DNA of 52,049 nt, taken from contig CALUSG010000025.1 in assembly GCA_944323365.1 (NCBI GenBank), positions 1 to 52,049 on the forward strand, given 5' to 3'. The notes under the pieces are model-generated. The model saw only the letters and a list, made by a program, of their open reading frames with translations. It was not told where the DNA came from and searched no databases. This document shows, in pieces, positions 12,727 to 51,041 of this stretch (positions within the stretch are counted from its first letter, which is position 1; every line of letters begins with the position of its first letter). Both the position numbers and the translations under genes were made by a program. Origin of the DNA: Candidatus Gastranaerophilales bacterium. GTDB taxonomy: Bacteria > Cyanobacteriota > Vampirovibrionia > Gastranaerophilales > Gastranaerophilaceae.

Positions 12727-13179
12727 TTATGCTGCAATATTTAATCCTGATATCTCTTTCCACATTGATTCCAGGGTTTGAACGTCGTTTTTCTTAAGCT
12801 TGGAAACACTGTAGTTATCAATTAGTGATGTAAATCCTGATTTAATAGATTTACCCATGCCTGCAAAGTCTATAGCAATTTCTGTACTGCCGATTTCATT
12901 AATTTTATGTACAGCAGAAGAAAATCCTTCTTTCATTCTTTTGCCAAAAGCGGCAACAGACTCAATACCTTTTCTGAAAGTAGGGAATGCATCGCCAATT
13001 GAGCCTACAAATGCACTTAATTTTAATTTGTTTTTAGCTTTAGATGATTCATAAACATCAGCTGTTAAAACATTGCCTTTAAATGTAGATGGGGCAAAAG
13101 GGTTTGATGAATGATTTACTGTTTTTTTAATTTTAATCGGGGTGTTTAGAACCTGACCAATCTTTGCAATTATTGCCAT
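12727..13179 (-). CDS. Hypothetical protein with N-terminal F-K-G signature
   Basis: 150 residues from the ATG at 13179, chosen because GAGAGG lies 7-8 nt upstream; an in-frame start at 13194 has no such site. The N-terminus runs through an Ile-rich stretch (MAIIAKIGQVLNTPI) and a polar linker to F33-K34-G35, a pattern shared with several other proteins in this window. The rest alternates small amphipathic helices. No known domain is recognised. It heads a two-gene unit with the HEAT-like gene. Confidence 0.7.
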   Translation of the reverse strand: MAIIAKIGQVLNTPIKIKKTVNHSSNPFAPSTFKGNVLTADVYESSKAKNKLKLSAFVGSIGDAFPTFRKGIESVAAFGKRMKEGFSSAVHKINEIGSTEIAIDFAGMGKSIKSGFTSLIDNYSVSKLKKNDVQTLESMWKEISGLNIAA

Positions 13180-26521: not shown

Positions 26522-26559
26522 TTCTTTTTTACTGATTCCAGGTTCTTTTTTACTGATTC
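26522..26559. repeat. Two tandem 17-bp units, 21-bp period, across a stop codon
   Basis: The same 17 bases occur at 26522-26538 and 26543-26559. The second unit contains the stop codon of the minus-strand gene 26550-27239; the other copy lies just beyond it. The end of the coding region itself is repetitive (QKEIQELQKLQKE), so this looks like slippage-driven growth at the gene end. Confidence 0.75.
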
Positions 26560-27239
26560 ATTTCCTTTTGTAGTTTTTGTAATTCCTGGATTTCCTTTTG
26601 TAATTCCTGTTTATTTGGTATTTTATTTATGCCTTTGTTTGTGTGAACGTCAGGAGTTATGATGCCTTTAAAAACCTTGTTTATTTCTGCTGTGATGTAA
26701 TTTAAGCGACCTAATAACTTTGCCTTCTGTTTTGCAGGTAATAAATTTTGTGCTTCTTTTAAGTCTCCGCTTACATGTGCTCTTACAGCATCTCCGTCTA
26801 TAAACGCTTTTTTCAACTTCCCGCCCTTATAAGATACATCAACTGCATTATCTAGTACCGCAGGTATTTTTTTATTAAAATCAGCGAATGCTGTAATTTG
26901 AACAGGTTCAGTTCCTCGTGGTGGTAAAATTTTACCTCGTAATTGGACTATTGGCTTCGTTTTATTTACATCCAGGCCTAGTGCAACATACCCAACCGGA
27001 TCGTTTTTTGAAAACATTTGAAGAAGTCCTGTACACATATTTTTGTCACCTTTTATTCCGCCTTTGAATGTTAAATCTTTATAGCCTAATTTCTTTAATT
27101 CTTTTACAATTTCTTTACCTTCAGGTGAAGCTTTTAATGATTCGTGAGGTAGTACTTTACGATAACCTTTAACCATTGCTTCTTTTAAAGTATTATACAT
27201 TTTTGGTGATATTAATTTTGAAACTGATGCTATTGACAT
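26550..27239 (-). CDS. Hypothetical protein, lineage-type
   Basis: 229 residues starting MSIASVSKLISPKMYNTLKE, with a GGGG ribosome-binding site upstream. The middle has beta-like segments (VGYVALGLDVNKTKPIVQLRG, VQITAFADFN) and the end is a Gln/Glu/Lys-rich helix with short heptad-like repeats (KQELQKEIQELQKLQKE), probably coiled coil. No signal peptide and no known domain. It stands alone, convergent with glmU. Its N-terminal tone resembles the other small lineage proteins here, but it lacks the F-x-G signature near the start. Confidence 0.65.
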   Translation of the reverse strand: MSIASVSKLISPKMYNTLKEAMVKGYRKVLPHESLKASPEGKEIVKELKKLGYKDLTFKGGIKGDKNMCTGLLQMFSKNDPVGYVALGLDVNKTKPIVQLRGKILPPRGTEPVQITAFADFNKKIPAVLDNAVDVSYKGGKLKKAFIDGDAVRAHVSGDLKEAQNLLPAKQKAKLLGRLNYITAEINKVFKGIITPDVHTNKGINKIPNKQELQKEIQELQKLQKEMNQ

Positions 27240-28183: not shown

Positions 28184-29560
28184 TTAATATTCTTGTTTGA
28201 ATAATTTTGTGATATTAAGCTTAATATGTCCTTCTTGTTCAATAGTTCTGATTTGTGACAGGGCATCTTCTGCTCGCATTTTCCCTGCATTTACAAGCTT
28301 GATTAAATTATTTGCGTATTTTTGCTGATTTTTCAGAGGGAAATTAAGTAATGTCTGCCATAATGGCTGGCTTTGTCTTGCTGAATTCAGACCTCTCTTA
28401 GCCAAAGCACAGTTAGCAATTGAATCTACACCGCCTTCTGATGACGGCTTTAGATGCTCTATTGAAACTAAGGACGGGTCAAATAGTCTATCCCCTATTA
28501 TATTTGGATCTACATCATTTAATTTTAATATTAATGCTTCCGGGCTTTTTCTTGATGTCGGCAAATGTTGTGCCAAATCCAGCATTTGTGACTTTAATTC
28601 TTTATCAGGCATACCTTCCAGCACTTTATTTAAATCATAAATAAATGCTTTATTACTAAACGGAACTTTTATTGGAATTCCTTTTAGCATATTAATGTTG
28701 TTTTCGCAAAGATGTTCTATTTTTTTGTAACCTTTTAATCTTGCGGTATTCAGCATATCCTCTATTAGTCTTATTTTTACTGCGTCTTTATCTGTTTCAA
28801 GTTTTTTCAGGTGCTTTTTATAAAAATCTGATTTCTTACCTGCGACTTTTAAATTCATAAATCCAAAAATCCGTTTTATTATTTTTTCGGGAATAGGTTT
28901 TTCATTATGGAACATTTCTGCTGATAAAATTTCCAAAAGTTTATCTATACGGTTTTTAAAGTTCCAATCTTCCATTTTTTCAGTGGCTTTTTTAATTTTG
29001 TATTCAAAGTCGTAAAAACTGAACTTTTGTAAAACAGGCTGGTCATATAGTTTTTTATCTGTTTGTGCCATAAAATTAAAGAAAGGTTCTATATATTCTT
29101 GTGGAAGTTTGGCTCCCAGAGTTTTTATGGTATCAAAATTAGGTTTTTGTTGTTTCCTTACTTTTGAACGTGTTTCTGAATACCAATTTTTTAGTAATTG
29201 TGAGGTTGTTATATCAGGATTTTTTTTAGCTGCTTGTTCAATTCGGTTGAAGACTTCGAGCTCAACTGATTTAAGATATCTGTTTTTGTATGGCTGAAGC
29301 TTACGGACAAATTCTGATACTGTACCTTGAAAAAGTCCTCTTGTTTTCATCTTTTTTAATTGAGAATGGGAAAGCATTTTATCACCGCTATAAAGACATG
29401 TCATATAACGGTTTAATTTCTTTAAATCCTTACCTGTCATAAGATGATTTTTGGCAGTAAAACATACTGTGTCATATGTATTATAGTAAGAATATTTTAT
29501 ATTAGATGTTCTGTTTTGGCTGCTATATGGGTATAAAAAATTTACCGGTAAAATTCTCAT
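28184..29560 (-). CDS. HNH-like motif protein with N-terminal F-T-A signature
   Basis: 458 residues. It opens MRILPVNFLYPYSSQN, an Asn/Tyr-rich stretch leading to C33-F34-T35-A36, as in the other signature proteins here. A long basic helical region follows (about 40-350). Near the C-terminus (about 380-412) is VSIEHLKPSSEGGVDSIAN followed by CALAKRGLNSARQ. This matches the HNH (beta-beta-alpha-metal) nuclease pattern: histidine in EHL, GG turn, asparagine in SIAN, final N in NSARQ. The zinc cysteines of many HNH proteins are absent. A nuclease role is inferred from that motif only. A TATATT box 7 nt before the ATG might make it leaderless. Confidence 0.7.
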   Translation of the reverse strand: MRILPVNFLYPYSSQNRTSNIKYSYYNTYDTVCFTAKNHLMTGKDLKKLNRYMTCLYSGDKMLSHSQLKKMKTRGLFQGTVSEFVRKLQPYKNRYLKSVELEVFNRIEQAAKKNPDITTSQLLKNWYSETRSKVRKQQKPNFDTIKTLGAKLPQEYIEPFFNFMAQTDKKLYDQPVLQKFSFYDFEYKIKKATEKMEDWNFKNRIDKLLEILSAEMFHNEKPIPEKIIKRIFGFMNLKVAGKKSDFYKKHLKKLETDKDAVKIRLIEDMLNTARLKGYKKIEHLCENNINMLKGIPIKVPFSNKAFIYDLNKVLEGMPDKELKSQMLDLAQHLPTSRKSPEALILKLNDVDPNIIGDRLFDPSLVSIEHLKPSSEGGVDSIANCALAKRGLNSARQSQPLWQTLLNFPLKNQQKYANNLIKLVNAGKMRAEDALSQIRTIEQEGHIKLNITKLFKQEY

Positions 29561-45901: not shown

Positions 45902-46777
45902 TTATAAATCTACGTTGTCTTTTAATAACGCTAAATCTTCAACATTTTCAGGTTTTTGTAATAATAAATCATTTTCTAAAGTCAATTCCTGAATTCTTTT
46001 TTTACTTAATTCATCTTGAAGATTTTTATAATAATCGTAATGTTTATTGAATTCACGATTTTTAACATTAGTATGGTTTATAGAGTGGCAAATAGCTCCA
46101 AAAGCAACTAAAAATGGTGCATATTTTACTAATGATTTACCGAAGTTTTTCAGAGCGGATGGAGTTTTTTGGGCTAATTTAGAAATACCTTTAGAAGCCC
46201 AATTTAACACTCTGTTTTTATCAAGTTTATCTGCGGTTTTTAAAATAGCATTAGATATTTTAGCGTCATGCTTGTCTATAAGTTTAGTGATATATTTGTC
46301 AGAGAATTTACCTAAAAGTTTGTTAGCTCCGGCAAGAATTCCAAAGCTTGCTCCTGCAGTTGCAATGAAAGAAACTAACGGATTCTTTTGTGAAAATCCT
46401 CTTAATTTATCAAATTTTTCATCAAGTTTTTGTTTGCCTTTGAATACTAAGTCAATAATACCAAAACTTGCAAACCAGCCTGCTGTTGTAGTAAGAAAAC
46501 CTGCTAATTTTTCATATCGTCCTGTTTTAGACAAAAGTTTTGGCGTAAATGCTGCTGTTGTAATACCTGCAGCAACAGGAACAAGGTTGATTAAAAGGTT
46601 ATCAAGTTTCTTGTGTTTTTTGTCATTAACACTTTTTGCCGTTTCTTCGTAAGCGGCCATTTGTAAAACACTGTCATCAAGGTTAATAAACGCATCTATA
46701 TTATCACGTTTGCCTTCAAAATTTTGACGAAGTTGAGAATTCCTTTGGGGATTAGCCCCTATTGCGGTAATTTGCAT
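45902..46777 (-). CDS. Membrane-associated hypothetical protein with N-terminal F-E-G signature
   Basis: 291 residues. The ATG at 46777 is chosen because AAAGGTG lies about 8 nt upstream; an in-frame GTG at 46786 has none. It starts MQITAIGANPQRNSQLRQ, then N19-F20-E21-G22, the same signature as other small lineage proteins here. Hydrophobic segments at about 65-85, 105-125, 150-170 and 225-245 suggest several membrane passes or hydrophobic helices; between them are Lys-rich helices. The C-terminus is a charged coiled-coil-like helix. No known family. Confidence 0.72.
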   Translation of the reverse strand: MQITAIGANPQRNSQLRQNFEGKRDNIDAFINLDDSVLQMAAYEETAKSVNDKKHKKLDNLLINLVPVAAGITTAAFTPKLLSKTGRYEKLAGFLTTTAGWFASFGIIDLVFKGKQKLDEKFDKLRGFSQKNPLVSFIATAGASFGILAGANKLLGKFSDKYITKLIDKHDAKISNAILKTADKLDKNRVLNWASKGISKLAQKTPSALKNFGKSLVKYAPFLVAFGAICHSINHTNVKNREFNKHYDYYKNLQDELSKKRIQELTLENDLLLQKPENVEDLALLKDNVDL

Positions 46778-49803: not shown

Positions 49804-50175
49804 TTATAGATATTCAAACAAAATTTTAGATAATTTAGATTCCTTAAATTCGTCTTTTATCTCATTTACTACTTTATTGTACAAGTCAACAAGACTATGT
49901 TCTTTTGTGTTTTCTAATGTATATGGAGCAGAACCCAAATTTTCCATTATTTTATTTTTATCTTTTTTGTATACCTTTAAATATATACTATCTCCACTTT
50001 CATTTCGGTCTAATAATACCAAGTCCTTATTTCCATTATTTTCAAGCATTTTAATTTGATTTTTTATTCTATTGCTAGCACCTTCAGTATATAATCTAGC
50101 AAATCTAAAAGAAACTCTAACTCTTGATGTAAAATTAGGTTGATTTGCATTATATGCTTGTACTTTAGAAATCAT
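49804..50175 (-). CDS. Small hypothetical protein with N-terminal F-T-S signature
   Basis: 123 residues with GGAG before the ATG. It opens MISKVQAYNANQPNFTSRVRVSF: an Asn-rich leader with N14-F15-T16-S17, like the other signature proteins here. The body is basic and mixed alpha/beta (NKDLVLLDRNESGDSIYLKVYKKDKN) and ends in a helical segment. No family recognised. It lies in the accessory region next to the recombinase remnant. Confidence 0.7.
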   Translation of the reverse strand: MISKVQAYNANQPNFTSRVRVSFRFARLYTEGASNRIKNQIKMLENNGNKDLVLLDRNESGDSIYLKVYKKDKNKIMENLGSAPYTLENTKEHSLVDLYNKVVNEIKDEFKESKLSKILFEYL

Positions 50176-50765: not shown

Positions 50766-51041
50766 TTAAACAATTTTATCAAGTTTATCTTTAGCAATGT
50801 TTTTAGCAACTTGATGTGGCAAAACATTAGCTACATAATCTAATAATACTACATTATTTTTAGCAACGTTTTTAGCAGCTTGATGTGGTAAAACATTAGC
50901 TACATAATCTAATAATACTGCATTTTTAACATTGGTCATTTGATACATACTGGTTCCCAATATATCAACAACCTTTGATGCTTCTTTATTAACTACTTTT
51001 GTCGGATTGCCTGTGAAGGCAATAGGATTAATTGATACCAT
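50766..51041 (-). CDS. Small F-T-G signature protein with 23-residue tandem repeat
   Basis: 91 residues with AAAGG before the ATG. It opens MVSINPIAFTGNPTKVV with F9-T10-G11, the shortest form of the signature. Residues 40-62 and 63-85 are two nearly identical copies (NAVLLDYVANVLPHQAAKN and NVVLLDYVANVLPHQVAKN, each continuing four residues), each an amphipathic hydrophobic helix. The rest is short and charged. No family recognised. Repeat growth by in-frame duplication is recent. Confidence 0.72.
   Translation of the reverse strand: MVSINPIAFTGNPTKVVNKEASKVVDILGTSMYQMTNVKNAVLLDYVANVLPHQAAKNVAKNNVVLLDYVANVLPHQVAKNIAKDKLDKIV
50787..50924 (-). repeat. In-frame 69-bp tandem duplication
   Basis: Two 69-bp units (50856-50924 and 50787-50855) inside the 50766-51041 gene, differing at only a few bases. 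They encode the 23-residue protein repeats. Confidence 0.9.

Follow-up and report, generated by a model that had tools for sequence, protein, structure and literature searches.

The early flagellar subunits FlgD, FlgE and FlgG carry a bipartite export signal (Bryant et al. 2022, PMC8983047), in which a gate recognition motif follows a hydrophobic extreme N-terminus, and in known systems the C-domain of FlhA participates in substrate recognition (PMC10965912). The signals of injectisome effectors, as modelled by SIEVE, favour Ile at position 3, are biased towards Asn and Ser and hold few charged residues (PMC2668754), and chlamydial glycogen enzymes, including MalQ, carry type III signals for which export of reporter fusions was demonstrated (PMC4829429). 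Closer to the organism studied here, the flagellin-less flagellar genes of Melainabacteria MEL.A1, a member of the same lineage, have been read as ongoing genome reduction (Di Rienzi et al. 2013, PMC3787301). Here we describe a short bipartite N-terminal segment, hereafter the head, that is shared by otherwise differing proteins of a Candidatus Gastranaerophilales bacterium and that may be a type III export signal. It was noticed in a stretch of 52,049 nucleotides, hereafter the window (contig CALUSG010000025.1, our C25, of the 1.70-Mb draft genome GCA_944323365.1). In the open-access literature we found no prior report of such an N-terminal motif, or of a type III system, in Gastranaerophilales.

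An earlier note, made from the letters of the window, had proposed that five minus-strand proteins with different bodies start alike, with a head ending in F-[TKE]-[GSA], and that this head is a targeting, tethering or processing signal specific to the lineage. All five open reading frames and their F-x-[GSA] heads (F9-T-G, F15-T-S, F20-E-G, F33-K-G and F34-T-A) were confirmed. They are given below with the evidence for each, which includes Shine-Dalgarno (SD) sites and scores from a position-specific scoring matrix (PSSM) trained on 15 heads of the own genome.

51009 to 51041, minus strand: head MVSINPIAFTG of the 91-residue protein 50766-51041 (sequence, SD-like site, PSSM 16.2 as a training seed).
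50125 to 50175, minus strand: head MISKVQAYNANQPNFTS of the 123-residue protein 49804-50175 (sequence, SD site, PSSM 14.8 as a training seed).
46712 to 46777, minus strand: head MQITAIGANPQRNSQLRQNFEG of the 291-residue helical, membrane-like protein 45902-46777 (orthologue conservation).
29453 to 29560, minus strand: head MRILPVNF...DTVCFTA of the 458-residue HNH-nuclease-like protein 28184-29560 (orthologues and structure model).
13075 to 13179, minus strand: head-like N-terminus MAIIAKIG...SSNPFAPSTFKG of the 150-residue protein 12727-13179 (borderline, PSSM 9.7).

The shared strand is true of the window but is a coincidence, headed genes elsewhere in the genome lying on both strands. Four SD sites had been claimed; an SD-like site is clear at 50766-51041, 49804-50175 and 12727-13179, weak at 45902-46777 and absent at 28184-29560. 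As the note had also said, the five proteins belong to no known family with confidence: searches of Pfam, NCBIfam and PHROGs gave sub-threshold matches only, among them a profile match of 28184-29560 to HNH_4 (E=0.004). A Foldseek search with this HNH member returned nothing below E 0.1, the best credible match being the HNH domain of Cas9, and the structure model of 45902-46777 is of low confidence. Membership of 50766-51041 and 49804-50175 is putative, being assigned from the motif score by itself. The body of the former contains a tandem duplication of VLLDYVANVLPHQ[AV]AKN[VI]AK. We regard 12727-13179, which was no training seed, as a borderline head bearer; its first anchor is atypical and its F-K-G lies within a longer conserved block (SSNPFAxxSFKGNVLTADVFE), both parts being kept in 24 of 28 orthologues.

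The head is more frequent at N-termini than chance would allow. In the own genome, N-termini from mechanical gene calling over about 528 kb, about a third of the genome, were compared with decoys starting at internal Met residues. Taken alone, F-[TKE]-[GSA] within residues 4-45 was weakly enriched, at 49 of 21,882 positions against 175 of 118,204 internal ones (1.5-fold, p=0.004), and was rejected as the defining feature. The genome-wide excess for which the note had called is strong when both parts are required: M-x-[IV]-x-x-[IV], a linker and F-x-G were found at 24 of 521 N-termini (4.6%), a count that takes in the examples from the note as well as some false positives, for instance transporters, against 14 of 2,106 internal Met (0.7%, p=5e-9). 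When the PSSM was run on genomes outside its training set, it recovered 13 of 548 N-termini in the family, compared with 1 of 732 in four other families and 6 of 2,035 decoys (p=1.3e-4 and 1.2e-5), and in the equally AT-rich control genome G018 (GC content 0.34) none of 320 reached the threshold. Furthermore, a degenerate DNA pattern of the head was scanned over 194 genomes. Among the 107 distinct matches listed for the family, 82 were in frame and stop-free, where a third would be in frame by chance; in control families 2 of the 8 matches listed were in frame. Across 80 named loci, 38 of 1,270 N-termini bore a head against 7 of 6,233 decoys, orthologues being counted repeatedly.

We are therefore nearly certain that the head is a real, selected and lineage-specific signal, and the enrichment, its conservation among orthologues and its confinement to the order as sampled support the note's broader proposal. 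As far as the sampled genomes suggest, heads are confined to Gastranaerophilales. Genome G056, of family f10, gave 7 matches to the DNA pattern, counted irrespective of frame, against 1 in the control reading, and heads may extend past the order.

Across these proteins the head has two anchors, with the consensus M-[KR]-[IV]-[SNT]-[PAS]-[IV]-[NST], a linker, and [NST]-F-[KTNRQ]-G; Q also occurs at position 2. In part, the [KR], [IV] and [PAS] positions reflect the DNA pattern itself, which leaves free the position after the second [IV], the composition of the linker and the residues flanking F; Ile or Val at position 3 is also present in most heads found without the pattern. Linker length varies between 1 and more than 40 residues; N, P, Q, S, T and H are abundant in it, and D, E and L are nearly absent. 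A further window protein, 26550-27239, begins MSIASVSKLISP and has no F-K-G until residue 58; it may bear a head with a long linker, or the likeness may be fortuitous.

The note had staked its proposal on orthologues keeping the head, and they do so. In the family of 45902-46777, the first anchor is kept in 30 of 30 orthologues, and F-x-[GSA] as well as both anchors together in 28 of 30; over 18 aligned sequences M1, Q2 and F20 are invariant, although the linker is as long as 13 residues in some and as short as 2 in others. The HNH family keeps F-x-[GSA] in 27 of 30, and among 13 sequences with a mean identity of 34%, M1 and H369 are invariant and F34 is at least 90% conserved. In the model of the window's HNH member, and for that member only, the predicted local distance difference test score (pLDDT) is below 50 at residues 1-38, which are thus predicted to be disordered, and mostly above 85 onward; because it rises after residue 38, the fold would start just after F-T-A. 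On inspection, the heads do not resemble Sec signal peptides, having a polar, Leu-poor linker and no hydrophobic core, nor was any cleavage-site pattern evident in them.

The bodies behind these heads are diverse and include AAA ATPases, a metallophosphatase, GNAT-like, EF-hand and HNH-like proteins, membrane-like helical proteins and GH77 glucanotransferases. Some of the genes are clustered: at least nine, among them GNAT-like and small repeat-type pairs, lie within 12 kb at L022:839-12365, and a trio at L075:212-4430 includes an AAA ATPase gene. In the protein L264:19774-20424 the head precedes a Sec-like hydrophobic segment, behind which come an EF-hand and a tail rich in His and Pro; orthologues of it occur downstream of several genes for soluble FlhA C-domain proteins.

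A type III apparatus is encoded in the same genomes. The own genome has one operon with FliE, FliF, a FliG-like protein, FliH and FlhA, and a second with FliO, FliP, FliQ, FliR and a C-ring protein. FliP is present in every family genome tested and FlhA (PF00771) in nearly all; flagellin is absent from the own genus and many other genera. Flagellated members have two FlhA proteins, and the type found in the own genome forms a clade of its own, apart from the flagellar FlhA that these members also encode, and is vertically inherited; the system is therefore older than the loss of flagella. The genomes of the family thus have a second type III system that does not depend on flagellin and is kept even where flagellin has been lost. 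FliF carries a flagellar C-domain, the operon holds a FliG-like gene and a rod protein was found in a relative; the description that would suit the system best is a type III secretion system (T3SS) of flagellar descent that is independent of flagellin, rather than an injectisome. A recurrent family of proteins beginning MGMAASQARYLGLTARKTNVEYEGQQINQ (L017:18414-19649, L014:5681-6757 and L090:7585-8559) has one copy near a T3SS operon and, given a coiled start reminiscent of flagellin or rod proteins, could be a structural substrate of the system.

The genomes also encode soluble proteins that have the FlhA C-domain (FlhA_C), with a small N-terminal domain in front and no membrane part. Examples are as follows.

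L225:1504-2982: soluble FlhA_C protein.
L224:1492-2943: soluble FlhA_C protein.
L100:4264-5745: soluble FlhA_C protein.
Own genome, contig C62, near 37542 and near 65923: two soluble FlhA_C genes, each adjoining a GH77 gene.

These proteins were found in families f1 and f2 and not in the genomes of f4 to f10 that were tested; within the sampling, the head is distributed in the same way. In genome G079, L223:1492-3273 is fusion-like and combines an N-terminal part resembling FliG with two hydrophobic segments and an FlhA C-domain. In 45 of the 80 loci a GH77 glucanotransferase gene lies directly downstream of the soluble FlhA_C gene, and 43 of these 45 enzymes are headed, having the first anchor in its strict form and F-x-R as the second; the GH77 domain (PF02446) was identified over residues 67-603 of L264:11527-13554, at 65.8 bits (cut-off 25) and E=4e-18. 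A second GH77 paralogue, located elsewhere, is present in all 20 genomes examined, and both copies that were read (n=2) are headless, starting directly at the common body. This headed and headless pair, together with the gene neighbourhoods, suggests that the head marks type III cargo.

Because of the anatomy of the head, the apparatus genes, the adjacency of FlhA_C and GH77, the bias of the linker and the precedents above, we favour, at slightly better than an even chance, the reading that the head is a modular N-terminal type III export signal, read by a flagellum-derived apparatus that was kept independently of flagellin. Heads share with known type III signals their place within the first tens of residues of the N-terminus, disorder (as predicted for the HNH member only), richness in Ser and Asn, few acidic residues and Ile near position 3, the last partly imposed by the search pattern. 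As in FlgD, FlgE and FlgG, there are two separated short elements on a flexible N-terminus, the first small, hydrophobic and at the extreme start; unlike in those rod and hook subunits, the second element is F-x-G, there is no minimum spacing, conservation is far stronger and the proteins concerned are enzymes or of no known kind. Injectisome signals likewise favour Ile at position 3 and are Asn/Ser-rich and charge-poor, but they are degenerate and without fixed anchors, whereas heads share two anchors across a whole order. The headed GH77 is, like chlamydial MalQ, an amylomaltase-type enzyme with a type III-like N-terminus, although the case made here is from sequence and gene order alone and concerns gut commensals. 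In contrast to the interpretation of MEL.A1 as decay, the FlhA tree shows a separate paralogous system that survived the loss of the flagellar copy.

Under this export reading, a disordered head would offer a short hydrophobic start (M-K-I-x-P/A/S-I), a flexible, charge-poor linker and F-x-G as docking residue. The first anchor would engage the export gate, F-x-G would dock on an FlhA-type C-domain, either that of the gate itself or that of soluble FlhA_C, and the folded body would follow as cargo. Binding of the head to FlhA_C, departure of the cargo from the cell and its destination are what we infer from the arrangement of these parts. More tentatively, and at somewhat less than an even chance, the head could be an order-wide N-terminal code with a dedicated receptor, possibly soluble FlhA_C, that feeds an undescribed flagellum-derived system exporting dozens of unrelated proteins, metabolic enzymes among them, from gut commensals.

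Several observations weigh against export by this route. The own-type FlhA is also encoded by genomes of f4 and f9 (63-65% identity), in small samples of which no heads were detected; a T3SS alone is therefore no predictor of the head. The structural proteins FliE, FliF, FliH and FlhA of the own genome have no head, nor does any headed gene lie inside the T3SS operons that were read, the nearest being ~1.1 kb past fliR and separated from it by an unrelated gene. A membrane-like character is seen in several headed proteins, and in L264:19774-20424 the head is followed by its Sec-like segment. Flagellar subunits require a minimum spacing between their two elements, but linkers here can be just 1-2 residues long. 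An early flagellar substrate signal in the strict sense was considered and rejected, the gate recognition motif (F-x-x-x-hydrophobic) being absent by inspection and the residue at F+4 usually non-hydrophobic.

A rival reading is that of an intracellular tether, in which the head is a linear motif binding a shared scaffold, membrane site or compartment, where unrelated enzymes and membrane proteins would be brought together with no export at all. The bodies include enzymes that are usually cytosolic (GH77, AAA ATPases) as well as a membrane-like protein, short linkers would be tolerated, and some members of the 12727-13179 family have a second, internal F-T-G. We nonetheless think a tether unlikely, as genes for a scaffold or compartment did not come to light, the sole recurrent neighbour found is the secretion-derived FlhA_C protein, and the motif, like export signals, has a fixed start and occupies the very beginning of the protein. 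Less probable still is a targeting or processing signal of another route outside type III secretion, such as a novel protease or a pathway of the envelope: it would accommodate the confinement of the head to f1 (weakly f2) when own-type FlhA is broader, and the Sec-like segment of L264:19774-20424, but the heads lack an evident cleavage-site pattern and retain the F-x-G anchor beside the fold. Chance resemblance, or a low-complexity bias of AT-rich N-termini, to which the mere 1.5-fold enrichment of F-[TKE]-[GSA] and the non-significant result of a simple regular expression in the G004 sample (p=0.07) might have pointed, is refuted by the orthologue and in-frame tests, runs counter to the held-out PSSM results and the empty G018 control, and has a negligible probability.

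It is difficult to define type III export signals by sequence. If the head is one, a signal definable by a motif would make it possible to list the secretome and to dissect how it is recognised; if it is instead a tether, it would point to an undescribed intracellular assembly. Under the export reading, the flagellin-less flagellar genes of Gastranaerophilales, until now taken as decay, would acquire a function, and the head would identify candidate secreted proteins for common, nearly uncultured gut bacteria.
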